Under the pieces are notes generated by a model, which searched no databases, was not told the origin of the DNA, and worked only from the letters and a program-made list of their open reading frames with translations. The position numbers were made by a program, and so were the translations under genes. From the NCBI RefSeq assembly GCF_947331435.1, contig NZ_CAMZOF010000001.1, positions 434,001-498,000 on the forward strand: DNA of 64,000 nucleotides. Reading direction: 5' to 3'. Positions within the stretch are counted from its first letter, which is position 1. Every line of letters starts with the position of its first letter. Positions 40,050 to 62,262 of the stretch are shown here, in pieces. This DNA comes from Pelagibius sp. Alg239-R121. Its GTDB lineage: Bacteria > Pseudomonadota > Alphaproteobacteria > Kiloniellales > Kiloniellaceae.

Positions 40050-40126
<77 letters not shown>

Positions 40127-40196: not shown

Positions 40197-40229
40197 TTTG
40201 CAGAGTGGCAAGACTTTGCATTTTGCAAA
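40197..40229. promoter_or_regulatory. Probable activator sites upstream of the kinase operon
   Basis: Two palindromes lie head to tail: TTTGC-AGAGTG-GCAAG (40197-40212) and TTTGC-ATTTT-GCAAA (40215-40229). They are 64-96 bases upstream of a sigma-54 promoter and match sites before the alginate-like promoters. I infer they are the NtrC-type regulator's sites. Confidence 0.65.
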
Positions 40230-40292
40230 GATTATTTCCCCAAAATGAAAAACTCTACCCAAGAAGCCTGCAAATCTGCCGGTGAAAGGGCA

Positions 40293-40308
40293 TGGCATGA
40301 CCTTTGCT
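40293..40308 (+). promoter_or_regulatory. Sigma-54 promoter of the kinase/activator operon
   Basis: TGGCATG-ACCT-TTGCT matches the -24/-12 consensus TGGCACG-N4-TTGCW with the exact 10-base spacing between GG and GC. It is 70 bases before the first gene of the operon. Confidence 0.8.
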
Positions 40309-40378
40309 GACCCTTCCGGTTAGGGCGTGACAATCCGGGGCGCCTGTAAGCAATAGCCGAATGCAAAGGATTGCCAGG

Positions 40379-40912
40379 ATGCTCAAGTCTCGTCTCGCCG
40401 CGGCGTTTCTCGCTGCAGCTATAATCTCACAGAGTGCCACCCTGCTGGCGAAAACCGAAGGCAGCCTGCCGGTACCAACCGAAGGCGTACTGCTCGAAGT
40501 TACCGGTAAGCTGATCCAAAGCAACGTCAAAGACGCGAAAGGCCCTGTGGCTATCCTGGATCGGTCGATGCTCGAGGGACTGGGCATCACAAAGATCGAA
40601 ACCTCGACGGATTGGACGGATGGTATACAGTCCTTTGAAGGTCCTCTCGTAAGCGATCTGCTCGAGCGCCTGGGCGCCAGCGGCACCACAATCCTGGCAA
40701 CAGCCGCAAACGACTACACTGTCGAAATCCCCGTTTCAGACTTTCTGCGCTACCCGGTCATCCTGGCCATGGAGATGAACGGCAAGCGCTTAACCCTTCG
40801 GGACAAGGGGCCGATCTGGATCGTGTATCCCCGAGACCAATACCCCGAGCTGGACGACCCCCTCATCAACGGGCGCTGGATCTGGCAACTCAAGCGCCTC
40901 GAGATCCGTTAG
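40379..40912 (+). CDS. Exported SUOX-fold protein
   Basis: A 177-residue protein beginning with a signal peptide [24 protein letters not shown]. The mature part resembles the molybdopterin-oxidoreductase (sulphite oxidase) fold: [71 protein letters not shown]. It has no visible cofactor cysteine, so it may be a ligand-binding rather than catalytic domain. As the first gene of a sigma-54-driven operon ahead of two histidine kinases, I infer a periplasmic sensory or accessory role. An in-frame upstream ATG at 40361 exists. Confidence 0.72.
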
Positions 40913-40961
40913 GCCCGCCGGCAGGTCACTCCAGGACACAGGAATGGGAAGGAAGCGAAAA

Positions 40962-42845
40962 ATGAAGCAAACAGCATTCCGCTACACGCCAATGCTCCTT
41001 GCCATTGCCGTTTTCCTGGGATCGCTTGGCTACAGCCTGACGGCAACCCGGAACGGTCACCAAACGCTCGAACAGATCTCTGACGAACGAATATTCTGGA
41101 GCGCAGCGCAGGCCGAAATCGAATCGCTCCGTTTTCTAAATGCGCTGGAGCGCTTCGGGCGTGCAGACCCAGAGATAGCGCCCCGGGACGTGAGCGAACG
41201 CTTCGAGATTCTTTGGAGCCGGCTTGCTCTGTTTCAGGAAGGTCAGATCGGCGCACGCCTGTCGAATTTTCCACAGGTCACGCAAAAGATCCAAAAGCTT
41301 TTAGTGGTGTTGACGGCGCAGGAGCGCGCGGTCATGGCTCTCAGCTCCGACGACCCTGCCGGCGCAATGGAAATAGCGGCTGCGTTTCAGCCCTGCACAC
41401 AAGCGCTGCGTCAAATTTCAATCGCTGTCGCATCTGACGAAGAACAACGATTCTCTAGTCTTCGCAACGAGTTAGGCGATCAACATTGGCACATCCTTGC
41501 CTTTACCCTCGGCTTGCTGATCACAGGGGGCCTGCTCGTTTACCTGCTGGACCGCGAACGCCGAATCACGGCATCGCTGGCGGCCCGCAATGCACGACTG
41601 GCGCAGGAAGCGACGCAAAGCAATCAGGCAAAGTCCAACTTTCTGGCGATGATGAGCCACGAACTCAGGACCCCCATGAACGGCGTGCTGGGTATGATCT
41701 ACTTATTGCTAGGTTCGGGCCTCGACCCCAAGCAGCGGGACTATGCCGAGCGGGCTAACCGCGCGGGAACCGCCCTGATCCGAATCATCAACGATATCCT
41801 CGATCTGACGCAGATGGAAATGGGGCGGCTGACGATCGAATCGGAAACCTTCCGGTTACGCGATGTCACGCGCTGCGTCACCGACCTCTTCGGTTCCGTT
41901 GATCGTGAAAAAGGCGTCACCATCCGTACAACGCTGGACGAGGATATTCCCGCGCAGCTGCGAGGTGATTCAAAACGTCTGCAGCAGATCCTGTTCAATC
42001 TCGTTGGAAATGCTCTGAAGTTTACGCCTTCGGGCAAAATTGGCGTCGAAGTCAAACGCGTCGGTGACGGGCACGTCGAAGCCGGGGGCACAGGAGCCGG
42101 GCGCAGCGGGAAAAAAAGCCCTGACCTGCGCCTGCGCATCGAAGTGACGGATACCGGGATTGGCATAGAAAAAAATAAGCAAAAACAATTGTTTGAAGAC
42201 TTTTCACAACTTCATTCGGTTTACACACGGCAGAATCAGGGCGCAGGACTCGGGTTGGCCATCAGCAAACGCCTGGTCGTACTCATGGGTGGAGAAATCG
42301 GTGTGATCAGCGATGTAGGAAAAGGCAGCACCTTTTGGTTCGAGCTGCCATTCGACGTACCCATTGATGCAAAGGCGGTCTCCGTTCAAGCTTCCGCTGA
42401 AGCAGGACGTACAGACCCAAGCCGTCAGAACACAGTGCCGCAGGACTCCGCCGGTGCAGCCTTCAAATCTCACAGAGGGCATATTCTGGTCGTGGAAGAG
42501 CTCGCAACGGACCGTGAGATCCTGAAAGTCTATCTGGAAAGATCCGAATATGAAGTCAGTTTCGCCGAGACCATCGCTGAGGGTATCTCTTCTGCAGATC
42601 AAGAGCGTTATGATGCGGTTCTGGTTAACCTGCCTTCAAAGACAGTCCGCAGACTGATCGATCGGGATCAGGACGACCTGGCCCCTCTCGGCAATCCCGA
42701 TATTCCCATAATCGGGATGCTGGATTCGTCGGATCAGGAACTGCTGGCGGCCTGTGCTTCGAGCGGCCTGAGCGCCTGTCTGGCCAAACCCTTGAACCCG
42801 CAGATCCTCGCGCGCACGGTCACAAACTGTATTGTGCCGCGATGA
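40962..42845 (+). CDS. Membrane histidine kinase with degenerate receiver
   Basis: A 627-residue protein. A first membrane helix (residues about 8-28) and a second (about 178-198) enclose a periplasmic sensor region. A HisKA domain follows with [20 protein letters not shown], then an ATPase domain with [30 protein letters not shown] and [12 protein letters not shown]. The C-terminal receiver-like domain begins [11 protein letters not shown], with Glu in place of the acidic Asp pair, and reads [10 protein letters not shown] where the phosphorylatable Asp should be; only the Lys in LAKPL is kept. It is thus a pseudo-receiver. GGAAG precedes the ATG. The next gene encodes the kinase that carries an HPt. 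Confidence 0.9.
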
Positions 42846-43012
42846 TTCCCAACCTGGAAAGCATCTTGCGCAGTCTCCGGAAGGACCTGGGGTTGATAAG
42901 CGAGTTATTATCGCTTCATTAAAACTATAGGTGCTCTAATCGACCTATCCCGTTGTATAAATTAGGCATACGCCGTCCCGCACAGAAACGGACAGCCGGT
43001 GGAAGAACCGCT

Positions 43013-45442
43013 ATGACCGAGCGAGATACGCTTCGGCAGACAGAAGCGATAAATGCGGCAAGCATCGCAAATGCGATGGATTGCATTATTACCGTCGACG
43101 GGGCCGGCAAAATTCTTGCCTTCAATCCGGAAGCGGAAAAGACCTTTGGTTTCGCGGCAGATGAGGTTATTGGACGCTCCCTGAGCGAAAACATCATACC
43201 TGATCGGATGCGCAACGCTCATGAAAAGGGTCTCATCCGCTTTCTGAAAACGCGCGAAGCCAACGTTGTCGGTAAACGCATCGAAATTCCTGCGCGCTGC
43301 GCTGACGGTAGGGAAATCAGTGTCGAACTCTCGGTGACCGCCTTCGAAATCGATAGACAACCCTATTTCACCGCATATCTTCGCGATCTTTCGCAACAGG
43401 GGGAAACCAGCATCGGGTCATCCGGTGACAAAAGCGACGGTAATACCGCCCAGCGCCTGGCGCGGTTGGGGAGTTGGACCTGGGATCTGACCCAGACAGA
43501 GGAGATAGCGTGCTCGGCCGAACTCTGCGATATCCTGGGTTGCGCCCGGGACTTTACACCCGACTTCGAAGGGCTGCTCGGCTTCATCCACCCCGAAGAG
43601 CGGGATCTGGTGCGACAGGCAATCGGCGAAGCGAAGCGTGACGGGATGCCCCACGGACACAGATCCTTCAAGAGCGACTTCCGCGTGGTGACCCCGGAAG
43701 GCCGGGTCAAATTTGCGACAGGAGTTGGCGAGGTGACGTTCGACGACGACGCCAAACCTCAGTTGGTTTACGGCACCATTCAGGATGTCACCGACTTGCG
43801 CGCCGTCGAACAGGAGCTGATCGCGGCACGGGACGAGGCCAATCACGCCAATCATGCAAAGTCCGAATTCCTGGCCATGATGAGCCACGAAATCCGAACC
43901 CCGATGAACGGAGTGCTCGGAACCCTGGGATTGCTGCAAAACATGGAGCTGCCGGCGCAGCAACACGATCTGGTCCAGTCCGCACGATCTAGCGGCGATG
44001 CCTTGCTTGATATCCTCAACGACGTCCTGGATTTTGCCAAGATTGAAGCAAGCAAGCTGGAACTGGAAGAGGTGGCCTTTTCTCTGCCCGTCCTGATCCG
44101 GAATATCCAGCGTTTCTGGGGTCACCAATTCGCAAACAAGGGGCTATCCTTCAGTGTTGAACTACCTGACGGCCTGCCGGCCTTTTTGGTCGGAGATACG
44201 GGGCGGCTGCGTCAGATCCTTCAGAATTTCCTCAGCAACGCGCTGAAGTATACTGCCGAAGGGCGCGTTCGCCTGATTATTTCAAGGGACGACAGTGCCA
44301 GCGCCTGGGAGGAGGGCGCGGTCCGAAACTTGCGTTTCTCTGTGATCGACAGCGGCGTCGGTATCGCGAGCGGCAAACAACAATCTGTCTTCAAGGCTTT
44401 CGATCAGCTCGACCGTGCAACCATGGACGGCGTAGGCGGCACCGGCCTGGGTCTGGCGATCTCAAAGCGACTTGCCGAATTGATGAAGGGCGAGATCGGC
44501 TTCTTGAGCGAAGAAGCTGTTGGAAGCACATTTTGGATTCAGCTGCCGTTGGAAAGTGCAGCGGACGCTCCTGAGGAATTGGACAGCGAAATTGCAGATC
44601 CAGCCGACGTCACGCCCTTTCGCGTTGGTTCAGACAAAAGGAAACCACGCATCCTTTTGGCCGAAGACAATACCACCAATCAAATTGTCGCCAGAGAACT
44701 GTTGCTTCGCCGGGATTGTCATGTCGACGTGGTGGCAAACGGTAGCGAAGCTGTTGAGGCCGTTCAGGCGCGCCCATATGATCTGGTTCTGATGGATATA
44801 TCCATGCCGGTCATGGACGGGATTGCGGCCACAAAAACAATCCGCGCCGAAAACTGTCCCCATAATAATGTGCCGATCGTTGCGCTGACCGCCTACGCGA
44901 TGAAGTCCGATCAGGAAACCTTCGCGGCAGTCGGTATGAATGGCTTCGTTGCCAAGCCGGTCCTGGATGGCAAACTGCTCTATCAGGAGATGGAGCGTAT
45001 TCTATACGCCGCCGCCTCTTCTGAACAACCAGGTGCCACACCCGCCGCAACAGATATTCTTATCGATCAAGCCACGTTATCCAGCCTCACGGAGAGTCTA
45101 GGCGAGGAAACAATGGCCAAGTTACGGGACAGCTTTCAGGGTGATGTTGAAAGATCCCTCAAGCAGTTGCATGAAGCTGCGGAGCAAGGCGACGTCGAGG
45201 CCCTGGAACACAGCAGTCACACCTTAAAGAGTGTCAGTGGGACCTTCGGTGCAATGCGTCTCCAGGCACAGGCCTCTGCAATCAACACCGCGAGTCGCAA
45301 CAGCGATTTCGAAGGGGCTAAGGCCGCTTTGCAGGGACTGGAGACGACCTGCCGCGACACCCTGAAAGTCTTCCATGAATCCAATTTGGCACGACCGGTA
45401 GGAAGTGACACAGACATAGCGTCTGATCCGGACAGAAAATAG
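43013..45442 (+). CDS. PAS-PAS hybrid histidine kinase with receiver and HPt
   Basis: An 809-residue cytosolic phosphorelay protein. Two PAS domains (residues about 15-125 and 145-260) precede a HisKA domain with [18 protein letters not shown] and an ATPase domain ([36 protein letters not shown]). A true receiver follows with LLAEDNTTNQ and LVLMDISMPVMDG, and the C-terminus carries an HPt module with SSHTLKSVSGTFGA. All phosphorelay residues are present. No membrane helix is found. GGAAG precedes the ATG by 7 bases. The neighbouring membrane kinase probably supplies the signal, and the regulator downstream receives the phosphoryl group. Confidence 0.92.
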   Translation: MTERDTLRQTEAINAASIANAMDCIITVDGAGKILAFNPEAEKTFGFAADEVIGRSLSENIIPDRMRNAHEKGLIRFLKTREANVVGKRIEIPARCADGREISVELSVTAFEIDRQPYFTAYLRDLSQQGETSIGSSGDKSDGNTAQRLARLGSWTWDLTQTEEIACSAELCDILGCARDFTPDFEGLLGFIHPEERDLVRQAIGEAKRDGMPHGHRSFKSDFRVVTPEGRVKFATGVGEVTFDDDAKPQLVYGTIQDVTDLRAVEQELIAARDEANHANHAKSEFLAMMSHEIRTPMNGVLGTLGLLQNMELPAQQHDLVQSARSSGDALLDILNDVLDFAKIEASKLELEEVAFSLPVLIRNIQRFWGHQFANKGLSFSVELPDGLPAFLVGDTGRLRQILQNFLSNALKYTAEGRVRLIISRDDSASAWEEGAVRNLRFSVIDSGVGIASGKQQSVFKAFDQLDRATMDGVGGTGLGLAISKRLAELMKGEIGFLSEEAVGSTFWIQLPLESAADAPEELDSEIADPADVTPFRVGSDKRKPRILLAEDNTTNQIVARELLLRRDCHVDVVANGSEAVEAVQARPYDLVLMDISMPVMDGIAATKTIRAENCPHNNVPIVALTAYAMKSDQETFAAVGMNGFVAKPVLDGKLLYQEMERILYAAASSEQPGATPAATDILIDQATLSSLTESLGEETMAKLRDSFQGDVERSLKQLHEAAEQGDVEALEHSSHTLKSVSGTFGAMRLQAQASAINTASRNSDFEGAKAALQGLETTCRDTLKVFHESNLARPVGSDTDIASDPDRK

Positions 45443-45453
45443 GCTACGCCATT

Positions 45454-46923
45454 ATGAGCAAAGAAAATACAACACGCGTCCTGCTAGTCGAAGATACACC
45501 TTCACTGTCAATCGTGTATCAGGAATATCTTTCCAAGGCGGGCGTGAAAACGGAACTTGCGGAAACCGGTGCTGATGCCTTGCGATTGCTGGAGAGCGGC
45601 CGGTTCCGCGTCGTTCTTCTTGATCTTAAGCTACCGGATATGAACGGCATCGACATCCTGAAGCAGATCACTGAACGCGGTCTTCCTGCGGCCGTCGTTG
45701 TTATAACCGCAGATGGCTCGATCAACACCGCAGTCGATGCCATGCGCCTCGGGGCCTATGACTTCATCGTCAAACCCTTCTCGGAAGACCGCCTGATTAC
45801 GACAACGCGCAATGCTCTGGAGCGCATCGAACTGCAGGCAACTGTCGAAACCATTCGCGACGATTTTGGCCGCGACCGATTTCAGGGTTTCATCGGCAGC
45901 TCTCTTTCAATGCAGGGCGTCTATCGCGCAATCGAATCCGTCGCCCGTTCCAAAGCCACGGTCTTCGTCACAGGTGAAAGCGGGACAGGCAAAGAAGTTT
46001 GCGCCGAAGCGATACATCGCGCCAGCCCCCGAAAATCCATGGCCTTCGTTCCGCTCAATTGCGCGGCCATCCCCAAGGATCTAATTGAATCTGAAATCTT
46101 CGGGCATCTCAAAGGCGCCTTTACCGGCGCCACGAGCGATCGTTCAGGTGCCGCCTCGCAAGCCCACGGAGGTACGTTGTTTCTCGACGAAATCTGCGAG
46201 ATGGATCTGGCGCTTCAGACCAAGCTGCTGCGCTTTCTTCAGACCGGAAAGATCCAGCCGGTCGGCGGTGACAAACTTCAGGCCGTTGACGTAAGAATTA
46301 TCTGCGCCACCAACCGTGACCCTGCACAGGAAGTGGAGGAAGGCCGGTTCCGTGAAGACCTCTTTTATCGTCTCCACGTCGTACCGATACATTTACCGCC
46401 TCTGCGGGAACGCCAGAACGATCCCGTTGAAATCGCACAAACCTTCCTGCGTGATTATGCCAAGGAGGAAAGCAAGGCCTTCAAAGGCTTCGCGCCGGAA
46501 ACCGAAACGGCACTTCTGAACCACACCTGGCCTGGAAATGTCCGTGAATTGCAGAACGTAATCCGTAATACGGTGGTTCTGCATGACGGTGAAGAGGTGC
46601 TGCCGGAGATGCTTCCACAATCCCTCGGCAATTCACCGGTTCTGCAGCGGCCAGAGAGCGGTGCCGAAGCCCCTCGGGTCGCAGCCCAAAGTTCCCGCAT
46701 GATCACGGGCCCCGCCAACGGCGCTCTAGGCAGCGCCAATCAGCTTGCTGGCTCGGCATTCGACATCGCGGGCTTGAAACTCTGGCAAATCGAGAAACAG
46801 GCTATCGAAGCGACCATTGCCGCCTGCGGCGGAAGCATACCAAAAGCGGCCACCCAACTCGGAATCAGCCCTTCAACCATTTATCGAAAGAAAGAGTCCT
46901 GGGACGCCCAGGGGTCTGAGTGA
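45454..46923 (+). CDS. NtrC-type sigma-54-dependent response regulator
   Basis: A 489-residue activator. The receiver (residues 1-125) has LLVEDTPSLS and VVLLDLKLPDMNG with the phospho-Asp. The AAA+ domain has FVTGESGTGKEVCAEAIH, the sigma-54-contacting GAFTGAT loop, GGTLFLDEICEMDL and an arginine finger region. A Fis-type helix-turn-helix closes the protein: ATIAACGGSIPKAATQLGISPSTIYRKKESW. It follows the HPt kinase by 11 bases. Sigma-54 promoters flank the operon itself and the downstream alginate-like genes, so this is the likely activator of all of them. The LuxO/AlgB branch is the nearest fit by layout. Confidence 0.93.
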   Translation: MSKENTTRVLLVEDTPSLSIVYQEYLSKAGVKTELAETGADALRLLESGRFRVVLLDLKLPDMNGIDILKQITERGLPAAVVVITADGSINTAVDAMRLGAYDFIVKPFSEDRLITTTRNALERIELQATVETIRDDFGRDRFQGFIGSSLSMQGVYRAIESVARSKATVFVTGESGTGKEVCAEAIHRASPRKSMAFVPLNCAAIPKDLIESEIFGHLKGAFTGATSDRSGAASQAHGGTLFLDEICEMDLALQTKLLRFLQTGKIQPVGGDKLQAVDVRIICATNRDPAQEVEEGRFREDLFYRLHVVPIHLPPLRERQNDPVEIAQTFLRDYAKEESKAFKGFAPETETALLNHTWPGNVRELQNVIRNTVVLHDGEEVLPEMLPQSLGNSPVLQRPESGAEAPRVAAQSSRMITGPANGALGSANQLAGSAFDIAGLKLWQIEKQAIEATIAACGGSIPKAATQLGISPSTIYRKKESWDAQGSE

Positions 46924-47447
46924 TCCACATCGAAGCGGGCGGCCCTCTCGCTCATCGAACCAAAGCGCCAGCCATCTCTCGAGAATAGCCGTCCTCAGTT
47001 CAAAAACAGACAACCGAATTCCTCATCGTAGCACTGGAGTCGCTCCGGCTTGGACGGAACCGTCCCCGGGCAATTTGCCGACCCGGTGATTTTGCTCTGA
47101 ACATGATATGTAGAATGGAATCACGCGCTTAGCGGGTCCACGCAAGTATCATCGCTAATCTGCGATTCATCGTCCCAATTCGCGAATCTCCCGCCCAATT
47201 CTGTATGCCAAAACCTGTTTCGGCGTCGGCCCCACAGCCCATCCCCGATGATTCCTGCTTGCGGGATTTCGCAACAATTCTCGACCAAAACCCGCTCAAT
47301 TCTGCCGTTTCCTCGTTGAATACAGGTCGGCCGCATGGCGCCTGTCTGCTCCATGCGAACAGATTGACAGCGCTTTGGCACAGCGATTGCGTCTTCTCAA
47401 TCAGGAAAGCCCTCTCGCTTTCCAGAAGATAGGAAAGGGACTTGATC
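46924..47447. other. Intergenic region upstream of the 57-residue gene
   Basis: About 520 bases after the activator gene. It contains a sigma-54 promoter (47376) and a looser palindrome TTGC-N8-GCAA at 47259-47274 about 100 bases upstream of it. I see no other gene. Confidence 0.55.
47376..47391 (+). promoter_or_regulatory. Sigma-54 promoter of the 57-residue gene
   Basis: TGGCACA-GCGA-TTGCG has both GG and GC of the -24/-12 consensus at correct spacing, with the same sequence through TTGC as the minus-strand promoter at 58568-58583. Confidence 0.82.
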
Positions 47448-47621
47448 ATGGCGCTTTTATACCAGGACAGCGAGATCACAGACGAAGGTCGCTCCAATGT
47501 TCTCAAAAAGACGACCGCCCGGCTGATCGAAACCCTCGGCAAAAAAGGGGCAATTTCCTTCGCCCTAAAAAACCACTGGGCCGGCGTGCTCATGGAGATT
47601 GAGCGGAACCGTCTCTCATAA
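47448..47621 (+). CDS. 57-residue protein, unknown, sigma-54-driven
   Basis: A short gene encoding MALLYQDSEITDEGRSNVLK followed by KTTARLIETLGKKGAISFAL and KNHWAGVLMEIERNRLS. AGGAAAGGG stands 10 bases before the ATG, a sigma-54 promoter lies 57 bases upstream and a strong terminator follows at 47662-47689, so it is a complete transcription unit. The protein is basic with two likely helices and no signal peptide. I do not recognise it. Its location between the activator and the algD-like gene suggests a small regulator or adaptor of the polymer system; this is inference. Confidence 0.7.
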   Translation: MALLYQDSEITDEGRSNVLKKTTARLIETLGKKGAISFALKNHWAGVLMEIERNRLS

Positions 47622-47661
47622 TCATCAACCACACCATTACTGACCGAGAGACCCGTTCAAG

Positions 47662-47689
47662 CCCCCTTGCCGATCCAACGGCAAGGGGG
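47662..47689 (+). terminator. Rho-independent terminator after the 57-residue gene
   Basis: A perfect 10-bp stem CCCCCTTGCC / GGCAAGGGGG with an 8-base loop, followed by TTCTTCGTTTC. Confidence 0.88.
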
Positions 47690-47721
47690 TTCTTCGTTTC
47701 GCGTTTTCGTCACAGCAGAGC

Positions 47722-47756
47722 TTTGCATCCTGAAAAGATTCTTCGCGCATTCGCAT
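47722..47756. promoter_or_regulatory. Degenerate activator sites before the algD-like gene
   Basis: TTTGCATCCTGAAAAG and TTCGC-GCATT-CGCAT resemble the better palindromes between 62047 and 62110 (which also contain TTTGC-GCATT-GCAC). They lie about 80-110 bases before the sigma-54 promoter. Confidence 0.45.
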
Positions 47757-47833
47757 TTTCGAAAGCCGGTTAAAACTCAAAAATAACCATATAACTAATT
47801 GTTATTTCTATTATTTTTTATAATTCCGCTATT

Positions 47834-47849
47834 TGGCACGCTTCTTGTG
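47834..47849 (+). promoter_or_regulatory. Sigma-54 promoter of the algD-like gene
   Basis: TGGCACG-CTTC-TTGTG: perfect -24 half, -12 half has GT instead of GC. An AT-rich block (47770-47825) lies just upstream, as expected for DNA bending. Confidence 0.7.
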
Positions 47850-47892
47850 ATGCAGCTCGTCAAGAGATCGTCATCAAGAAGGAAGCAAAGCC

Positions 47893-49311: not shown

Positions 49312-49413
49312 CTGCATCTGACGCAGCAGGCATCCCCGGCCGCCGCCAGAAGCCACACCTGCGGCGGCCGGGGGATCCGAACCTTCGATACAGGAACAAC
49401 AGGAGGAACCAGG

Positions 49414-54455: not shown

Positions 54456-54465
54456 GGCGCCCTCC

Positions 54466-55983
54466 TTAAAAGTTGAAGTAGATGAACTCGGTCAGATCAT
54501 CGAGCCTGTAGAGCTGGATGATGGCGGTCACGGCAATCACCGACATGGCCAGCGCCCAGCCGCCAGACGGCCGCCAGGCAATACCTCCGAAGATCCGTTC
54601 CGCCATCCCGCGGGCGGTGACGAGCGAAGCTTTGACATCGATCACCGGGCGATAGCGTTTGACCAGCTCAATGCCGTTCGGTGCCCATAGAACAATGGCG
54701 CCCAGAAGGACAAACTGCGTCCAGTAGAGACCGCTGTCCGACAAAGTCGCCGCCCAGACCGAAGGATCGTAGTAATCGGTAATGCCGAACATGCCCTGAA
54801 CAACGGCCAGCGCTCCGCCAAAGCTTTCAGCCCGGAAGAACACCCAAGCCACGACAACCGCCAGCAGAGTGATGGCCTGTGACAACGCGCGACGCACTGG
54901 CCCGGGCACAAGAGTGAAGTGATTTTCGCCGCCGGCGAGACTGCTCCAGGCATGGTTGACGATGAGATAAATTCCGTGCAGCAGACCCCAGAAGACGAAG
55001 TTCCAACTGGCACCGTGCCATAAGCCTCCCAGCACCATGGTCGCCATCAAATTGATGTAACGGCGTGCCTTGCCCTGCTTGTTACCGCCGAGTGGAATGT
55101 AAAGATAATCGCGCAGAAACCGCGATAGCGTGATATGCCAGCGCCGCCAGAATTCGACGATCGAAACGGATTTATAGGGCGAATTGAAATTGATCGGCAG
55201 AACGATCCCGAACATGCGCGCAAGACCAAGCGCCATATCGCAATATCCCGAGAAGTCGAAGTAGATCTGGAAGGTGTAAGAGAGCGCGCCGATCCAGGCA
55301 GCTTCCAACGGAACGCTCTGACCGCTATCGGCCAAACCAAAGACCGCGTTCGCCAGGGGAGCGACGCCATCCGCCAGCACGATCTTCTTGAACAGGCCGA
55401 TCGCAAACAGCGTGCCGCCGACCGACAGGTTCACGAACATCCTCTTACGGAAAACGCTCAAACGGAACTGCGGAATTGTGTCCTTCTGCAACACGATCGG
55501 ACCGGCGATAAGCTGCGGAAAGAAAACAACAAAAAGACAGTAGCGCGCAAAATCGCAGTCGGCGACCCGGCCTTTGTAAGTGTCGTAGAGAAACGAAACC
55601 TGTTGAAAAGTGAAGAAGGAAATCGCCAACGGCAAAATGATATCCAGCATCGGCAATTCGACACCCGGCATTAGGTTTACATTTGCGATCAGGAAATCGG
55701 CATACTTGAAGTAAGCCAGTGTCGCCAGGTTTCCGATGATCCCCGCTATGAGCAGGCTTTTTCGGCCCGTTGCCAGGATGCCCCTGTGCAGCCCGAAATT
55801 CGCGACCACAGAAGCCAGCAGCAGGACCAGATGCAGGGGACTCCACCAGGCATAGAAGGCGATGGAAGCCGCAATGAGCCACCAGACAATGCCACGCTCC
55901 CAGCCCAGCCAGCGCAGGATCAGAAAGCCGATCAAAGTCGGCGGAAGAAAGAGATAGATGAACTCGAGTGAACTAAAAACCAT
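54466..55983 (-). CDS. algI: MBOAT acyltransferase, AlgI-like
   Basis: A 505-residue membrane protein with about ten spans. It has the AlgI/DltB pattern: SSLEFIYLFLPPTLIGF at the N-terminus, SFFTFQQVSFLYDTY, AGPIVLQKDTIPQF, YLYIPLGGNKQGKARRYIN and the catalytic GGLWHGASWNFVFWGLLHG with its two histidines. In alginate systems AlgI acquires acetyl groups for O-acetylation of the polymer. GGAGG precedes the start. The upstream SGNH protein and Sel1 protein belong to the same unit, while the toroid-like protein is immediately downstream. Confidence 0.92.
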   Translation of the reverse strand: MVFSSLEFIYLFLPPTLIGFLILRWLGWERGIVWWLIAASIAFYAWWSPLHLVLLLASVVANFGLHRGILATGRKSLLIAGIIGNLATLAYFKYADFLIANVNLMPGVELPMLDIILPLAISFFTFQQVSFLYDTYKGRVADCDFARYCLFVVFFPQLIAGPIVLQKDTIPQFRLSVFRKRMFVNLSVGGTLFAIGLFKKIVLADGVAPLANAVFGLADSGQSVPLEAAWIGALSYTFQIYFDFSGYCDMALGLARMFGIVLPINFNSPYKSVSIVEFWRRWHITLSRFLRDYLYIPLGGNKQGKARRYINLMATMVLGGLWHGASWNFVFWGLLHGIYLIVNHAWSSLAGGENHFTLVPGPVRRALSQAITLLAVVVAWVFFRAESFGGALAVVQGMFGITDYYDPSVWAATLSDSGLYWTQFVLLGAIVLWAPNGIELVKRYRPVIDVKASLVTARGMAERIFGGIAWRPSGGWALAMSVIAVTAIIQLYRLDDLTEFIYFNF

Positions 55984-56061
55984 GGTACATGGACCTCCAC
56001 GTCCTGAACGATGCGTTACGGCCGATCGCCGCTCCCCCGAACTTCCAGTCGAAGCGACCGC

Positions 56062-57249
56062 TTAACCGACATCTTCCTTGCCGCCCGACATGGCGAGCAG
56101 GTCTTTCAGTAGCGTTTTTGAGCCAAGATGACCGAGCGCGGTCCCCCTGCGCGCCAACTTGATCGCGCCCTCAAGATCTTTCGGAACCAGCTGGCCTTTC
56201 GCACAGAGGCGTGCAAGTTCTTCCATTGAACCGCCGTGGCCGGCCTCAACACCCTTTTTGAACCAGGCCGCCGCGTCCTTGCGCCTAAGACCGTGGTCTT
56301 CTTTGAGATGCAAACGGCCCAGCGCCGTCATGGCACCGCCGTGCCCCAGATCTGCTGCACGGTGCAACCAGCCGAGGGCTTCCTGACTAGCCTTGGCTGC
56401 ATCGTCCGTCGCCAGCATCAGATTGGCGAGGTCGTGCATACCGCCGGCATCCCCAAGATGGCTGGCGTGCCGCAACCAGCGTGCTGCCACGATCAGATTT
56501 GTTTCGACGAACTCGCCGTCGCGATAGAGGCGCCCAAGCATCTTCGCGGCGCTGCCTGAGCCATTCGCCGCCTTATCCTTCAAGGCTTCGATGGCCTTCG
56601 ACGCAAGGAACTGGGCACGCTTGGGATCGGGTGTCATCCCAAAGCGCCCCTTTTGAAGTGCCCTGGCAAATCGGATCGACGCCGACTCATATCCCGCCAA
56701 CGCTGCTTCGCGATAGTGGATGACAGCCTGATCGACATCCCGCGCCACACCCAGCCCGCGCTCGTGATGCATGGCCAATTGGACGTGCGCCTTCCTGTAA
56801 TCCCATTCCAGAGCACGCATAAACCATTCGACGGCAATGCGACTGCAGTCTTTTCCCTTCGAACGCTGGTAGAGCCGGCCCAGTTCGTAAGCGGCCTCGC
56901 CGCGAAACGGGAACTGGTACTGAACTGCCCGCAGTAACATCTGGCGCGACTTTTCCAGATCGCGCTCCGTTCCCCAGCCCCGGCTGTAGGCTTTGGCCAG
57001 ATGAAACATGGCCGTTGGATAACCTTCATGGGCATAGCGTTCAAAGGTTGTGGCTGCCTCCTGCCACTTACCAAGTTTCTGAAGTCCGCGTGCCTGCTTG
57101 ATTGCTTCGGTGACCTGCGGATCGACGGGTGCATTCTTTTCAACAGCATCCGTCTCTTTCCACATATAAAGGGACGCTATTATTATCCCTACACCTGCGA
57201 ACATCGCCAAAGCAGTCGCCGGATAATCAACCTTTCGAATATCAGTCAT
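56062..57249 (-). CDS. Sel1-repeat protein, AlgK-like
   Basis: A 395-residue protein with an N-terminal membrane helix (residues about 11-28, TALAMFAGVGIIIASLYMW), followed by about nine Sel1/TPR-like repeats (such as HLAKAYSRGWGTERDLEKSRQML, YELGRLYQRSKGKD and LGRLHLKEDHGLRRKDAAAW). AlgK of Pseudomonas is a Sel1 lipoprotein that assembles the alginate export complex. Here no lipobox is seen, so it is anchored by a helix instead. It overlaps the SGNH gene start region by eight bases. The operon position supports the AlgK-like role, though sequence alone gives only the fold. Confidence 0.75.
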   Translation of the reverse strand: MTDIRKVDYPATALAMFAGVGIIIASLYMWKETDAVEKNAPVDPQVTEAIKQARGLQKLGKWQEAATTFERYAHEGYPTAMFHLAKAYSRGWGTERDLEKSRQMLLRAVQYQFPFRGEAAYELGRLYQRSKGKDCSRIAVEWFMRALEWDYRKAHVQLAMHHERGLGVARDVDQAVIHYREAALAGYESASIRFARALQKGRFGMTPDPKRAQFLASKAIEALKDKAANGSGSAAKMLGRLYRDGEFVETNLIVAARWLRHASHLGDAGGMHDLANLMLATDDAAKASQEALGWLHRAADLGHGGAMTALGRLHLKEDHGLRRKDAAAWFKKGVEAGHGGSMEELARLCAKGQLVPKDLEGAIKLARRGTALGHLGSKTLLKDLLAMSGGKEDVG

Positions 57250-58531
57250 TGCTCCACCTCCAGATACGGCAACCCCCTCCTTCCGACATCGTCACGATGC
57301 CGTCGGAAATTTCATGTGTGGTATCAGCCGCTGTGACGGGACAGCTCAGTTCGCCGCGACGTTTACGGGCTTTTTGAACCGGCTCCGACTCTTCTGAAAC
57401 CAGTTGAACCAGCTCGCCGACAATGTTTCGCGCAGCCTTGGAATTGAAGTGGTAGGCGTCGGTAAAACGCTCCAAGTCTCGGGTAAGGCCATTGTCGAAA
57501 TCAAAATCGACGACCGGCGCGAGTGCGGCCAGACGGGTCCGGAAACGATGATTCAATTCGGCGTGCCCATAGGCCGTCATCCGCTGCTGCATCTCGGTGA
57601 TGGTCGGCGGAATCACAAAGATCAGCCTGACACCGTTAGCCGCACTCCAATCGGCCATTTCTGCGACCCGCGACCAGAGCTCTTCCGAGAACTTGAAGGA
57701 TTTCCAGTCTGATCGGCCGTTTTTTCGAACCTGTCGTTCGAAGCGCGACGGCAACTCCCTGGTGATTTCAAGTGCGGGCCAGGCGGCTGCCCAGCGCCCA
57801 TAGCCCCGGCCCAAACCCAGGTTCAGACCTTTGGAAACGGCTGGCAGACTGATGGGCCCATCCAGTTCGGGAAGCCTACAGCCGTAACAGGCCTCGGGGC
57901 TCAACAGGCGCACCAGCGGCACCTCGCCGGGAGCTTCGAATTCGGTGGCTCGTGCAGGTGATACAAGCCGCGGCGTCCAACTTTGGGCTTCTTGGATCTG
58001 CGCGGCGTAGCGCTGATTCAGATGACGCCAGCCGACTTTCGCGACGAACCAGCTTGTGTAGTAATCAAAGGCATTTCCGGTCAACTTTATCGCTTCAGGC
58101 ACCCGGTTCATGCCGCCCTTGTGGTCTGGATCGAAGGACCGAAGCTGAATGCCGACCACAAGTGTGCGCAACTTCGGGTCGTTCTTTACGTAGCGAAAGG
58201 TGTCGTAAATCTCATGAACCGTTGCGCCGCCGTAAGCGAAGTTGAAAACTTCCACTTGCCCGAGTTCGTTCCAGTATTTGTTGCGCAACGCCCGGGCCCG
58301 GCTGTCGCCCAAGATCACCGTCTTGGCACCTTCTTGCGGATAGCGGGCCATCTTCCAGAGAGGGTAATGCGCTTTTTCGCTGATCTTTTGCTTATTCAGA
58401 TCCAGGTCGACCGCCGCATTCATGTCGTAAGGATCGACGATGACGTTGAACAGAGCGGGCGACAGACCGGCTGTGACCGCCAATCCCAGTGCAATGGCGT
58501 AAAACCGCCCTCTTGCTTTGATACCTGTCAT
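57242..58531 (-). CDS. SGNH-hydrolase-like protein, AlgJ/AlgX-like
   Basis: A 429-residue protein with an N-terminal signal-anchor helix (residues about 8-30). It has the SGNH nucleophile motif TVILGDSRARAL with Ser77 and a later FTDAYHFNSKAARN with the Asp-x2-His pair near residue 370, a full catalytic set of the DltD/AlgJ/AlgX group. These enzymes pass acetyl groups onto polymer at the periplasmic side, with AlgI as acetyl donor. GGAGGG precedes the ATG by 8 bases. It is the first gene of a minus-strand operon with a sigma-54 promoter at 58568. Confidence 0.82.
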   Translation of the reverse strand: MTGIKARGRFYAIALGLAVTAGLSPALFNVIVDPYDMNAAVDLDLNKQKISEKAHYPLWKMARYPQEGAKTVILGDSRARALRNKYWNELGQVEVFNFAYGGATVHEIYDTFRYVKNDPKLRTLVVGIQLRSFDPDHKGGMNRVPEAIKLTGNAFDYYTSWFVAKVGWRHLNQRYAAQIQEAQSWTPRLVSPARATEFEAPGEVPLVRLLSPEACYGCRLPELDGPISLPAVSKGLNLGLGRGYGRWAAAWPALEITRELPSRFERQVRKNGRSDWKSFKFSEELWSRVAEMADWSAANGVRLIFVIPPTITEMQQRMTAYGHAELNHRFRTRLAALAPVVDFDFDNGLTRDLERFTDAYHFNSKAARNIVGELVQLVSEESEPVQKARKRRGELSCPVTAADTTHEISDGIVTMSEGGGCRIWRWSND

Positions 58532-58567
58532 GGCACAATCCCTCCAGAATGACTTTGACCTGTGAGG

Positions 58568-58583
58568 AGCAATCGCTGTGCCA
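58568..58583 (-). promoter_or_regulatory. Sigma-54 promoter of the SGNH-AlgK-AlgI operon
   Basis: Minus-strand TGGCACA-GCGA-TTGCT has perfect GG/GC spacing. It lies 37 bases before the SGNH ATG, after an AT-rich block. Confidence 0.85.
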
Positions 58584-58654
58584 TGATGCGATTTATATTT
58601 TTACTATATTTTTCAGCGGGTTATTTTTATTCAATTCGACTCAAATGCGGAAGA

Positions 58655-58682
58655 TTTGCCAGATTGCAAAGAGGCCTTTGCC
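58655..58682. promoter_or_regulatory. Probable activator sites before the SGNH operon
   Basis: A perfect TTTGC-CAGATT-GCAAA palindrome at 58655-58670 and a further TTTGCC half-site at 58677-58682. They are about 72-100 bases upstream of the promoter, and the CAGATTGCAAAG core is the same as at 62047. Confidence 0.7.
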
Positions 58683-58721
58683 ATAATCGAAAGAGTTCCG
58701 CTCTCGCAGAATGCTAAGGAT

Positions 58722-60344
58722 CTACATTCCGAGCGCGGCCTGAATGGTGGTCATGGTGGGAATTGGGACCAGGTTCGCGTAGTGCACTGTCCCGAGGACC
58801 AGTAGAGCCACGGCGATCGCCGTGCACCAATTGGCCATGAGATTCCGTGCGGTCTCTACCAGAGAACCGCCATCCATACCGGCCGACTGGTTGCCGCGAT
58901 TCGACCATCGCTGTTTAGAGAGGCGGAAAATGCAGTAAACCTTAACCGAGGCGTTGATCAGCTGATTAAGGTACAGGATCCAGGGATAAGCCATCTCGAT
59001 GCGGCGTGAATAGCCGAACAGAAACAGGGACAGCAGCATCCGGCTGATGGCGATGAAGATCAGATAGGACGCGATGTAGGAGGCGCCCTGCATCACGGTC
59101 GCCATGACGGCAAGCGCCGGACTGACGAGCATGGTCCACATGGAAATCCGCTGGTCGACCAGGCACCACCAGATGAAAAACGGCATCCGGCGCGGCCCAA
59201 GCTTGATTGCACGCGCGCCGTTGCGCAGCATATTGCCGGACCAGCGGCGAAAGTTCTGAACCATCCGGTCCATACCGGAACCTTCGATCACCTCCACCGT
59301 ATAGCCCATTGCATCCGGGACGTAACGCATGTGGGCTCCATGCTTGAGCATGTAATACCAGGTGCTCTTGTCATCACCCGACAAAAAGCGAAAATCGCCC
59401 CAAAGCCAATGGTTTAAGTGATCCGCCTCAAGCAGACGGATGAATTCGAGCTGCAGCAGGTTCTTGGCACGGAACACCGACATACGCCCCGTCAGCGTCA
59501 GCACCCGGCCGGAAAGGGCATGCGACTGCATGGCCAGGCGACGCTGGGCGAAGCGCATTTTAAGCCAGGTCTCGATCCAGCGCGGGCCGATGCAGATCAC
59601 TTCTTCATCGGTCGTGCAGGCCTGTAGATCGGGATAAAGCTTGAACAGCGGCATACAGCGGCTGACCGCGCCTTCCGCCAGGATAAAATCGCCGTCCATG
59701 AAAACCACCAGGTCGTCTTCATGCACCGGCAACCGGTTCATGGCCCGCAGAACCAGGCCGATAGCCGCGCGTTTACCCGAAACGTTCTGGCGGATGATAC
59801 GCAGCGTGATGTCGATATCTGCTGCCTCACGCTCCAAAAAGTTGATGATAATATCTTCGTCGAAGCGGTCGGACGACCCCAACCAGATGGTCCCCGGCAC
59901 GCCGGAGTTGCGGATTTCCAGGACAATCGAACGCACCACCATTTCGGTGATGCTCCGGTGCTCCTTATAGGTCGTCATCATGAAATGCATATGGCGGGGC
60001 CGCCAGCCGGAATCCCAGATCTTCTGCCCTTGCCGGCGCATTTTAGGATAGACGAAACGGCCATAAATATAGGCCCGCACCGCATGGGTGAACCACCAAC
60101 CGTAGCGCCAGACACCGAGCGCACCAATCACGAGCGTGATCTCCCTGGTTTCGATATCCCAGATGCTGTTCGGCAGAGTCAGGATACCCAGCAGGCAGCA
60201 GGCGAAATAGAGGGCGATGCTGAAGAGGGCGGCGGGAGTCCACTTGCGGAACCCGGTCGACCAATCTGTCGGGTCATCCAGATTCGGCACCTGGTCCAGA
60301 GCTGGAATCTTGGGGGTGACCCAGATGTCAGAGGGCTTCTGCAT
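58722..60344 (-). CDS. alg8: Mannuronan synthase, Alg8-like GT2
   Basis: A 540-residue processive GT2 with membrane helices at both ends. It contains the donor-site VVFMDGDFILAEG, the acceptor-site SGDDKSTWY and the QNFRRW processivity motif, plus MQSHALSGRVLTLTGR and HLNHWLWGDFRFL segments typical of Pseudomonas Alg8. It would join mannuronate from GDP-ManA and push the chain across the inner membrane. It overlaps the stop of the Alg44-like gene by 17 bases. Its promoter is the shared one at 61969. No cellulose-type C-terminal PilZ is fused. Confidence 0.93.
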   Translation of the reverse strand: MQKPSDIWVTPKIPALDQVPNLDDPTDWSTGFRKWTPAALFSIALYFACCLLGILTLPNSIWDIETREITLVIGALGVWRYGWWFTHAVRAYIYGRFVYPKMRRQGQKIWDSGWRPRHMHFMMTTYKEHRSITEMVVRSIVLEIRNSGVPGTIWLGSSDRFDEDIIINFLEREAADIDITLRIIRQNVSGKRAAIGLVLRAMNRLPVHEDDLVVFMDGDFILAEGAVSRCMPLFKLYPDLQACTTDEEVICIGPRWIETWLKMRFAQRRLAMQSHALSGRVLTLTGRMSVFRAKNLLQLEFIRLLEADHLNHWLWGDFRFLSGDDKSTWYYMLKHGAHMRYVPDAMGYTVEVIEGSGMDRMVQNFRRWSGNMLRNGARAIKLGPRRMPFFIWWCLVDQRISMWTMLVSPALAVMATVMQGASYIASYLIFIAISRMLLSLFLFGYSRRIEMAYPWILYLNQLINASVKVYCIFRLSKQRWSNRGNQSAGMDGGSLVETARNLMANWCTAIAVALLVLGTVHYANLVPIPTMTTIQAALGM

Positions 60345-61941
60345 CTGCTTCTTCCCTGGACAAGACGCTGAAATCGGAGATACGCGAATAGATGTCGCTG
60401 GTCAGCCGACGGTCGAAGATCACCACAGCGGGCAGACCGGCACGGATTTCTTGGTTTTGGCGACTTTCCCGTTGAATCTTAAGGGAAACCGCCGCCGTCC
60501 GCTCACTCGTGCCGCGCCATGTGTAATGGTCGCTTTTGCCGTCAACAAAGGCAGAGCTACGGTCGATCGCCACGACCCGGGCCACGATGTGGCGGCCGAG
60601 CGCAGGCAGAAAGACCTGCGCTTCATCATTCAGACCCACTTCCAGGATTTCCTCCTGGTTCAGAAAGGCCGTAATCGTCAGGTCGGAATCGCGCTCCAAT
60701 ACCAGCAGGGGTTCATCGCGCAAGACATTGCTGTCACCGGATTGGAACAAAGTGACGATACGTCCGTCAAAGGGTGCACGGACAACCTGGCGCTCCTGCA
60801 TAACCTGCAGAGCGTGCAGTTGCATCGCCGCCGTCTCGAATCTACTGCGCGCCTCGCTGACATCGATCGACATCATGTCCAGGTCGGTAACGAATTCCTT
60901 GTGGTTATAATGGCGCCGGCCGGAGACTGCGTCCATTGCCGAAGCGCGTTCCAGATCCAGCTCGGCCTCACGCAACGCCGCGGCGGCTGTCGCTTGGCGG
61001 TTCCGGGCTTCATCCAGCTTGGCAGCCGTGGCGTAACCCTTCGCCGCAAGAGCGTGGGTGCGCTGCAGATGTGCATCCGCGGCTTTAAGCGCTTCCTTGC
61101 GGGCTTCGATCCGCGCCACCACAATGTCCCGGTCGGTACGGTTGATAATCTGATAGAGCTTCAGACGTTCTTTTTCGACGCGGAACTTTTGCTCGGCGCG
61201 CCACAGCGCATCCTTGACATCGTTGTACTTGATCTCAGCGTCACTGATACGCCCGGCTAAACGCAGATTGTCGATGCGGGCAATTTCATCACCCTTTCGC
61301 ACGCGGGCGCCCTCAACGAACCGAATCGGACGCACGATACCGTCGACCGGCATTTTCACGGTCTGTAAGGGGGCGGAGACAACAGCCGACTGAACCTCCA
61401 AACGCATGATGTTGCTATACAGCAGAAGCCCGACATAACCGAAGACGAAGATTCCGAGAACAATGTAAAGACTTGACATGACTAAGGTTTTTACCGGCCA
61501 CCGGCGAACCGCCGTGCCTTGTGTCGGATTGGGATCGGGTTCGGTCGAGATTGGCGTGACGGGCACATCGATGCGGCAGATGGCGTCTTCGATCGTGCCC
61601 ATTTTGCCGCGGATGAGATCCTGGATGAAATGGTTCATCAGGTCGTGGGAGCGTTCGGTCAATTCCTCAAACTCGAACGCGATCACGCGGTCGTCTTCCG
61701 AAATGCGGATAACGCTCGCTTCCACATCGAAGGAAATGTCGTAACCCTGGAACGGCAGTTCCAGCAACAGCTCAACCTTGTCACCGACGGCTGGGTAATC
61801 GCCTTCGAAACCCTCGATGCTGACACCGCCAAGACTCCAGTCATGGGAACGGTACTTAGCCCCGCAGCCGAACGTGACATGCAGAGGCGCAGTCACACGA
61901 TGGTGGCGGCGTTGGCATGGTCGCTCTCGTACAATCCTCAT
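60328..61941 (-). CDS. alg44: c-di-GMP-binding PilZ and HlyD-like protein, Alg44-like
   Basis: A 537-residue protein. Residues about 10-110 form a PilZ domain with RRHHR (R-x3-R) and DWSLGG (D-x-S-x2-G), both c-di-GMP contacts intact. A membrane helix (about 155-180) is followed by a biotinyl/HlyD-like periplasmic part with a long coiled coil (about 260-370). In Pseudomonas Alg44 is the c-di-GMP receptor that turns on Alg8. The ATG at 61941 has AAAGGAG before it and a sigma-54 promoter only 28 bases upstream, so a longer frame to 62115 would start inside the promoter and is excluded. Confidence 0.92.
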   Translation of the reverse strand: MRIVRERPCQRRHHRVTAPLHVTFGCGAKYRSHDWSLGGVSIEGFEGDYPAVGDKVELLLELPFQGYDISFDVEASVIRISEDDRVIAFEFEELTERSHDLMNHFIQDLIRGKMGTIEDAICRIDVPVTPISTEPDPNPTQGTAVRRWPVKTLVMSSLYIVLGIFVFGYVGLLLYSNIMRLEVQSAVVSAPLQTVKMPVDGIVRPIRFVEGARVRKGDEIARIDNLRLAGRISDAEIKYNDVKDALWRAEQKFRVEKERLKLYQIINRTDRDIVVARIEARKEALKAADAHLQRTHALAAKGYATAAKLDEARNRQATAAAALREAELDLERASAMDAVSGRRHYNHKEFVTDLDMMSIDVSEARSRFETAAMQLHALQVMQERQVVRAPFDGRIVTLFQSGDSNVLRDEPLLVLERDSDLTITAFLNQEEILEVGLNDEAQVFLPALGRHIVARVVAIDRSSAFVDGKSDHYTWRGTSERTAAVSLKIQRESRQNQEIRAGLPAVVIFDRRLTSDIYSRISDFSVLSREEADAEAL

Positions 61942-61968
61942 GGTGCTCACTCCTTTTGCCATCCCAGC

Positions 61969-61984
61969 AGCAATCGGCGTGCCA
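61969..61984 (-). promoter_or_regulatory. Sigma-54 promoter of the alg44-alg8 operon
   Basis: Minus-strand TGGCACG-CCGA-TTGCT is a perfect consensus match. The ATG is 28 bases past the -12 element. Confidence 0.9.
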
Positions 61985-62046
61985 GTTGTGACGCGCGACA
62001 AAACCGGAGAGTTCCGCCAAAAACGCGATGGGTGTGCCCCGGAGTT

Positions 62047-62110
62047 CTTGCCAGATTGCAAAGACCGTCCTTTGCGCATTGCACAGAGATCGCAGGTTGC
62101 AATCCGCAAA
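62047..62110. promoter_or_regulatory. Three activator-type palindromes between divergent promoters
   Basis: CTTGC-CAGATT-GCAAA (62047-62062), TTTGC-GCATT-GCACA (62071-62085) and TTGC-AATCC-GCAAA (62097-62110). They lie 63-126 bases from the alg44 promoter and 86-149 from the algA promoter. Confidence 0.7.
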
Positions 62111-62195
62111 AACACCGCATCAAGTCATCGAATACTTTCTTTAACTATCTGTTTTTTCTAATTTATTTGAATTAGTCAGCTGTCAATTCGAAAAT

Positions 62196-62211
62196 TGGCA
62201 ACATCCTTGCG
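62196..62211 (+). promoter_or_regulatory. Sigma-54 promoter of algA
   Basis: TGGCAAC-ATCC-TTGCG matches the -24/-12 consensus with correct spacing. It decides the algA start, since a candidate ATG at 62212 would fall at the transcription start. Confidence 0.85.
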
Positions 62212-62262
62212 ATGACGTCCTGCAACAGCGGCCATGCCGCGCTAATGCGAGGAGCTTTTGCC

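Follow-up and report, generated by a model that had tools for sequence, protein, structure and literature searches.

The locus described here raises the question of whether a cluster of polysaccharide genes and the signalling genes beside it belong to one regulon, and which protein would switch that regulon on. It lies in a stretch of 64,000 nucleotides from Pelagibius sp. Alg239-R121, called the window below (C1:434001-498000 of the 8.02-Mb genome; C1, C6 and C9 are contigs of this genome), in which an operon ending in a sigma-54 activator gene is followed by an alginate-like cluster. An earlier note on this DNA had proposed that a single sigma-54 regulon joins the two, with six promoters, a TTTGC-N5/6-GCAAA palindrome upstream of four of them and weaker versions at the others, and an NtrC-type gene that activates itself and the cluster.

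From sequence comparisons we consider it likely that the module is a self-contained regulon for a polysaccharide, driven by its own LuxO/SypG-type activator; it was probably acquired as an island. The proposal of a single regulon is supported by boxes at related loci, with L122 and L192 among them, and by the LuxO/SypG precedent. As to its membership, the unit at 47376 has no box, and in the window itself the 58583 promoter has a weak one. The labels L and G denote the related loci and genomes that were compared, G000 being the host genome.

Promoters and boxes

All six of the proposed -24/-12 sites are found at their positions. Those at 40293(+), 47376(+), 58583(-), 61984(-) and 62196(+) match TGGCAN6TTGC, and the one at 47834(+) reads TGGCACGCTTCTTGTG. 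In the genome scan with the sigma-54 consensus that the earlier note had suggested, exact TGGCAN6TTGC occurs 134 times (76+58), which corresponds to 0.37 expected sites in the 22.07 kb between 40197 and 62262, where five are observed (Poisson P 4e-5). The genome also contains rpoN.

The companion scan with TTTGC-N5/6-GCAAA gave no clear enrichment, with 26 sites genome-wide vs 21 for the reversed control, and this form was abandoned as the working motif. Within the region its exact form is confined to 40215-40229 and 58655-58670, with near versions at 62048-62061 and 62097-62109 in the region shared by Alg44 and ManC. Judged by its sequence, the palindrome is the LuxO box, TTGCA-N3-TGCAA. Seven exact copies of this box exist in the genome, and 5/7, distributed over three places, have a TGGCAN6TTGC site downstream of them. 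The box at 40216-40228 is identical to a LuxO chromatin immunoprecipitation site at qrr3 of Vibrio cholerae (PMC10328515), and in V. fischeri both LuxO and SypG act via TTGCAWWWTGCAA upstream of qrr1 (PMC10162802).

To score the boxes, the best one upstream in each region was compared with 2,000 dinucleotide shuffles. At 40293 this box has 0 mismatches (p 0.0015), at 47834 one (p 0.006) and for Alg44/ManC also one (p 0.029), and the observed total over five regions was reached by 0/2,000 shuffles. Box starts are located 77-125 bp upstream of the -24 elements. The earlier observation is borne out in part.

The activator

The gene at 45454-46923 does have the GAFTGA loop of an NtrC-type protein, as had been noted, together with a receiver and a Fis-type helix-turn-helix (HTH). 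Its best NCBIfam model is LuxO (614 bits, compared to 408 for the NtrC model), and the best chain in the PDB is LuxO 5ep0 (458 vs 340 bits). In a tree of 73 rows, LuxO joins the alphaproteobacterial family, with a 100/99 split from five other enhancer-binding proteins of the genome; the inner place of LuxO in this tree has moderate support, with long branches flagged. The activator falls in a 14-row clade (100/98) that holds 10/12 of the activators labelled as neighbours of alg clusters, and the paralog on C6 described below is outside it.

A linker glycine (Gly145 in V. cholerae, Gly141 in V. angustum) is said to be conserved in LuxO and not in NtrC proteins (PMC4878744). G145 of the activator aligns with the glycine of QGFIG in 5ep0, which we infer to be Gly141. 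This glycine is absent from 7/8 other enhancer-binding proteins of the genome that were compared; in L007 a Gly does occur at that offset, where the alignment matches poorly. It is also missing from 2/13 rows of the family. Eleven HTH residues are required by V. cholerae LuxO (PMC11407668), and in the alignment 8/11 are identical in the activator, with N410S, V420I and L429K differing. By these comparisons the 45454 gene encodes an enhancer-binding protein of the LuxO/SypG type, closer to LuxO than to the NtrC type, which probably reads the DNA word of LuxO, TTGCA-N3-TGCAA. The earlier note was silent on the LuxO identity, as it was on the PruR-type sensor, the tRNA-flanking repeats and the rest of the genome-wide box set.

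Conservation of the box at related loci

The 13 named relatives of Alg44 are from metagenome-assembled genomes, of Alphaproteobacteria wherever a group is given. For a ranking of half-site/spacing palindromes, 74 intergenic pieces (23.9 kb in total) from 17 further alg-type loci were used, the window being left out; DNA counted as intergenic where no match to a window protein covered it. Of 9,216 such palindromes, TTGCA-N3-TGCAA takes the first rank. This DNA holds 17 copies with <=1 mismatch, 7 of them exact, while 200.7 kb of coding sequence hold 21, of which 4 are exact. A box and a -24/-12 site are found upstream of alg genes in several related loci, and L122 and L192 have boxes upstream of the activator operon.

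The activator is encoded in the stretch at 7/13 of the named Alg44 loci (L072, L074, L075, L076, L078, L080 and L082). Five of the 6/13 that lack it are short or truncated (L073, L077, L079, L081 and L083); L071 is not. Four other genomes of the class have Alg44, and there the activator lies beside the cluster in G207 and G276, within ~10 kb of it in G283 and on another contig in G171.

The box-plus-promoter pattern occurs in 2/61 genomes of the order and 5/385 genomes of the class, host included, and the reversed control gives 0 in all, including all 385 of the class. Of the four other class genomes with the pattern, 3/4 have a LuxO-type gene nearby (G166, G222 and G304), which in G166 and G222 is placed amid genes that by eye resemble polysaccharide genes. 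The fourth, G091, is not among the 73/385 class genomes in which the family is represented at E<=1e-125.

It could be argued that promoter-like and palindrome-like words without function have come together here by chance, and the TTTGC-N5/6-GCAAA count, about as high as that of its reversed control, would fit such a view. In light of the sigma-54 excess, the joint shuffle result, the first rank of the box in other genomes and the empty reversed controls there, we regard this as very improbable.

A change of box and helix in one clade

In one clade, the box (TTGCA to TTCGA) and the recognition helix covary. The promoters of L075, L080, L082 and L083 have TTCGA-N3-TCGAA-type palindromes instead of TTGCA boxes, and three activators of these loci, which form one 100/100 clade, carry KMSPSTLYRKRE in place of the [IVL]SPSTIYRK of other alg activators. 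Ten loci have a TTGCA box with <=1 mismatch at 19/29 sigma-54-like sites and TTCGA at 0, while the four TTCGA loci have the TTGCA box at 0/11 and TTCGA at 6/11. These numbers belong to a set of 49 sigma-54-like sites whose locus groups were formed after the boxes had been seen, and they are descriptive, not a test; some sites are inside genes, and those with <100 bases upstream were omitted. The TTCGA form was first spotted by eye, and a de novo count on the clade ranks TTCGA-N3 fourth, behind three overlapping forms. STLYRK is also present in L099, L164, L169 and L179, and as ATLYRK in L188, with no local TTCGA boxes near a promoter, so that this change alone does not define the switch.

Several observations weigh against a regulon of the LuxO type. 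The cut-off of the LuxO equivalog NF041946 is not reached by the activator (614 vs 800 bits), and it is therefore called LuxO-like, not LuxO. At 58583 the best box has 2 mismatches (p 0.14) and is weak. The weaker version claimed at 47376 could not be upheld: there is no LuxO box at this site, the best candidate has 3 mismatches (p 0.71) and it was dropped. L071 comprises a full 21.6-kb stretch with no activator. L081, L096 and L120 have either box at 0/9 sigma-54-like sites, although L096 and L120 carry a LuxO-type gene. Finally, only 1/40 activator neighbourhoods from the class search, L190, has a box with <=1 mismatch near a sigma-54-like site (an exact box occurs anywhere in 5/40), which points to other roles, or to action at a distance, for many members of the family.

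The weak or absent boxes at 58583 and 47376, and the lack of a nearby box for most family members elsewhere, would also agree with a scenario in which the boxes serve some other regulator, such as a dimer that is not an enhancer-binding protein, and the activator reads different sites. We find this improbable, because the boxes are identical with LuxO sites, 8/11 of the critical LuxO HTH residues are kept and box and helix covary.

As a separate observation, positions 9564-12816 of L190 (G302) combine LuxO boxes with sigma-54-like sites in the vicinity of a LuxO-type gene, other kinases and a protein that looks, by eye, like a heme-NO-binding protein.

Signal input

The activator gene is the last of four genes in the same direction (40361-46923), encoding a SUOX-like small protein, a hybrid kinase, a PAS-PAS-kinase-receiver (REC)-histidine phosphotransfer (HPt) protein and the REC-AAA+-Fis activator. 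A profile built from the first gene together with four relatives finds the PruR pterin-binding proteins of the PDB (E 7e-49), and the predicted fold fits seven PruR chains (template modelling score by target 0.85-0.95). The protein has the SUOX-type fold, 183 amino acids (aa) where ~170 are expected, 0 Cys and, judged by eye, a signal peptide. PruR-DTB systems have a WX7E motif and a TorS- or BaeS-like kinase (PMC13259868). In the adjacent kinase the motif is W52-SAAQAEI-E in the periplasmic domain, and its best NCBIfam model is TorS, below the cut-off of that model. WX7E is also found in five PruR-linked kinases (L100, L101, L118, L120 and L122). Since the operon begins with a PruR-type protein and a WX7E kinase, pterin may be its signal.

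The receiver of the first kinase has Asn at the position of the acceptor Asp, and the second kinase keeps the Asp and has an HPt domain; the relay therefore probably runs through the second kinase. At L072, L074, L075, L076, L080 and L082 there is a different hybrid kinase of ~1,010-1,030 aa and no PruR. From these comparisons, the input varies across the alg loci and the output is kept.

A LuxO-type activator as the output of a PruR-DTB system would be new within the literature searched. Sections 7 and 8 of the PruR-DTB review name no output, and 'response regulator' occurs 0 times in the review (PMC13259868). It is important to note that all PruR-linked loci except L118 were fetched via the activator, Alg44 or place, so that the link between PruR and the activator is biased by sampling.

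Polysaccharide genes and module layout

After the activator operon come the 57-aa open reading frame (ORF), algD, the RTX/DUF4114 gene, a minus-strand operon, alg44-alg8 and manC (Table 1). The minus-strand operon contains the AlgX/J-position protein, the AlgK-like and AlgI-like proteins and a 651-aa protein with no known family. The start of Alg44 was moved to the ATG at 61941 and that of ManC to the ATG at 62263, each downstream of its promoter. The algD product has a GDP-mannose 6-dehydrogenase as best PDB match (399 bits vs 263 for the next). The expected set of a GDP-mannose dehydrogenase, an Alg8-type synthase, a PilZ Alg44, AlgK, AlgI and ManC is present, with Alg8 and AlgK assigned by Pfam domain and place. 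Among the ORFs scanned, there is no Pfam match to AlgE, AlgG, AlgL or AlgF, and for this reason the cluster is called alginate-like.

Compared to the Pseudomonas/Azotobacter alginate cluster, counterparts of AlgD, Alg8, Alg44, AlgK, AlgI and ManC/AlgA are seen here, while AlgE, AlgG, AlgL and AlgF are unmatched among the ORFs scanned and the 651-aa and RTX/DUF4114 proteins are present instead. The alginate regulators of Pseudomonas, AlgU, AlgB and AlgR, differ from the regulator found here.

Table 1. Features of the module, in window coordinates.
Feature	Position	Strand	Remark
38-bp perfect repeat, tRNA-Arg 3' end (tRNA gene 40050-40126)	40090..40127	+	second copy C1:498480-498517
Weaker TTGC-N6-GCAA box	40198..40211		from sequence
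Exact LuxO box TTGCATTTTGCAA	40216..40228		genome scan, shuffles
Sigma-54 promoter TGGCATGACCTTTGC	40293..40307	+	matches TGGCAN6TTGC
PruR-type periplasmic pterin-binding protein (predicted), 183 aa, no Cys	40361..40912	+	profile, fold
Membrane hybrid kinase, WX7E periplasmic motif (PruR-DTB type), receiver without acceptor Asp	40944..42845	+	
PAS-PAS-kinase-REC-HPt hybrid	43013..45442	+	ORF from TTG 42953; ATG 43013 likelier start
LuxO/SypG-type sigma-54 activator (REC, GAFTGA AAA+, Fis HTH)	45454..46923	+	
Sigma-54-like site, no LuxO box upstream	47376..47390	+	
57-aa ORF, no family match	47448..47621	+	terminator-like hairpin 47660-47691
LuxO-type box, 1 mismatch, TTGCATCCTGAAA	47723..47735		
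Sigma-54 promoter, TGGCAC-N5-TTGT	47834..47848	+	
AlgD-like GDP-mannose 6-dehydrogenase	47893..49311	+	
RTX repeat/DUF4114 protein	49648..51771	+	
651-aa conserved protein, fold family unknown	52500..54455	-	
AlgI-like MBOAT acyltransferase	54466..55983	-	
AlgK-like Sel1-repeat protein	56062..57249	-	
AlgX/AlgJ-position protein	57242..58531	-	assigned by place; no significant Pfam or PDB match
Sigma-54 promoter TGGCACAGCGATTGC	58569..58583	-	
TTTGC-N6-GCAAA palindrome	58655..58670		
Alg8-like family 2 glycosyltransferase	58722..60344	-	
Alg44-like PilZ-HlyD protein	60328..61941	-	start corrected
Sigma-54 promoter TGGCACGCCGATTGC	61970..61984	-	
TTGC-N6-GCAA box	62048..62061		core identical to 58655 palindrome
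Two overlapping LuxO-type boxes, 1 mismatch each	62090..62109		common to alg44 and manC
Sigma-54 promoter TGGCAACATCCTTGC	62196..62210	+	
ManC/AlgA-like mannose-1-P guanylyltransferase/isomerase	62263..63744	+	start corrected

At 47376-47691, a sigma-54-like site, the 57-aa ORF and a terminator-like hairpin stand together with no LuxO box, and the 57-aa protein has no Pfam match and no relative among the related loci compared. The 651-aa protein (52500-54455) is kept in seven related clusters with 46-56% identity; it has no family match, and its model is fair (mean predicted local distance difference test score 78) with no convincing fold match. A role as C5-epimerase was a guess and is not claimed.

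The probable island and the boxes elsewhere in the genome

Two perfect 38-bp copies of the tRNA-Arg 3' end enclose the whole module, the outer one just beyond the window end (64480-64517 on the window scale). No integrase was noticed among the ORFs looked at. Each of the 3/3 congeners has one activator at E<=1e-100, of the C6 type, and the ortholog of the island activator is absent from 3/3; in G003, the one congener searched for it, Alg44 is absent at E<=1e-60. The module was thus probably acquired as an island, transfer being the simplest reading.

Two further places in the genome have boxes of the same kind. At C1:104570-104965 (L084 7571-7965), two exact boxes and a sigma-54 site are upstream of a 70-aa ORF, whose product has no Pfam match; the ORF is conserved in G002 (L105, L124) with 77% identity, and two exact boxes and a sigma-54-like site accompany it there. 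At C9:17802-18145 (L085 9803-10146 minus; L193-L196), two exact boxes and a sigma-54 site are upstream of an RNA of ~125 nt.

The C9 RNA has a strong terminal hairpin and a T-rich tail and is conserved in 4/4 genomes of the genus. It is apparently non-coding: in alignments inspected by eye, G002 is without the first ATG and an indel ends the frame of the second ATG early, and a coding gene was therefore discarded. It matches no Rfam family, and its resemblance to Qrr is one of promoter plan only. A covariance-model search with strict filters, in which 48 candidates were scored per genome, gave weak matches in G019 and G033, without boxes. Within 40000-64000 of the window, the Rfam scan returned the tRNA and two sub-threshold matches, and a Qrr or other Rfam regulatory RNA in that part was accordingly set aside. 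A Caulobacter small RNA paper that mentions Qrr refers to the vibrio family (PMC12559287).

A genus-wide LuxO-type paralog, 57% identical to the island activator, is encoded at C6:179750-181153 (L002, L088). In the 19 kb around this gene, no box is close to a promoter. Because the congeners are without the island activator, this paralog likely drives the C9 RNA.

This makes it necessary to consider whether the promoters in the window, while sigma-54-dependent, could be driven mainly by the C6 paralog, perhaps through the same box, with the island activator minor or redundant. The degree of identity, the ISPSTIYRK helix that the paralog retains and the exact boxes at C9 in congeners that lack the island activator would allow this, and LuxO and SypG of V. 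fischeri are known to share boxes (PMC10162802). However, a dedicated activator is found beside the cluster in 7/13 named alg loci; of the remaining six, all but L071 are truncated. The activator of the window clusters with these alg-locus activators (100/98). Moreover, the syp promoters of V. fischeri respond to SypG, not LuxO (PMC10162802). We judge this scenario to be unlikely, though the least so of the alternatives considered, and retain the island activator as driver.

Proposed mechanism

Sequences, homologies, site statistics, conservation and flanking repeats were computed here; binding, phosphotransfer, pterin sensing and polymer identity we infer. With the island activator as driver, the PruR-type protein would, as in its family, bind a pterin in the periplasm and contact the WX7E domain of the partner kinase. 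Phosphate would pass through the PAS-kinase-REC-HPt protein, as its domain order suggests, and then reach the receiver of the LuxO/SypG-type activator. The activator would bind the LuxO-type boxes and drive the sigma-54 polymerase at its own operon, algD, alg44-alg8 and manC, and possibly also at the AlgX-AlgK-AlgI operon, for which the support is weaker. By driving its own operon it would make the system self-amplifying. The products would make and export an alginate-like mannuronate polymer, with c-di-GMP acting on the PilZ domain of Alg44 as a second input.

Relation to known systems

SypG-type control of polysaccharide loci is already known. The SypF-SypG/syp system of V. fischeri has, as here, a LuxO-like sigma-54 response regulator, an HPt-bearing hybrid kinase and several sigma-54 promoters in a polysaccharide locus, and SypG can use LuxO boxes at qrr1 (PMC10162802). 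The reported SypG word is TTCTCANNNTGMDWN (PMC10162802), vs TTGCA-N3-TGCAA here. Unlike syp, the present locus has an alginate-type synthase cluster, a PruR-type input and an alphaproteobacterial host. Syp-like scv loci with SypG orthologs occur also in the alphaproteobacterial genera Elstera and Terasakiella (PMC8941931). They combine a SypG-type regulator with polysaccharide genes as here, but their clusters are syp-like, not alginate-like, and LuxO boxes and PruR are not mentioned in the parts of that paper covered (PMC8941931).

The LuxO-Qrr circuit of vibrios, in which LuxO is a quorum-sensing regulator, shares the activator family, the box and sigma-54 (PMC10328515, PMC11407668, PMC4878744). 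It differs in that the activator here is below the LuxO equivalog cut-off, the targets in the window are polysaccharide operons and the Qrr-like RNA is outside the window; no autoinducer receptor was identified for the LuxO-type activator here. With PruR-DTB systems the operon shares the PruR fold, the lack of Cys and the adjacent TorS-like kinase with WX7E (PMC13259868); what differs is the link, in this operon, with an HPt kinase, a LuxO-type activator and a slime cluster. That sigma-54 controls the bacterial exterior has been proposed before (PMC3162934).

A wider picture can be offered tentatively, at slightly less than even confidence: an alphaproteobacterial LuxO-type network parallel to that of vibrios. 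In it, a PruR-DTB pterin relay would act on a LuxO/SypG-type activator and, via LuxO boxes, on exopolysaccharide operons, and the genus-wide paralog would act on a Qrr-like small RNA and a small protein via the same box. The island copy would plug its own slime regulon into this network, and box and helix would have been switched together in one clade.

Implications

The literature covered describes LuxO boxes and LuxO-small RNA circuits from vibrios. In the present data this box can be traced through genomes of probable Alphaproteobacteria, and following it leads to targets not previously pointed at. The case suggests an output for PruR-DTB pterin systems, and the natural switch of box and helix is a means to test how such activators read DNA. 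An arrangement in which tRNA repeats enclose the sensor and activator along with the promoters and biosynthesis genes would account for the ability of a slime cluster to move and to function as soon as it arrives.

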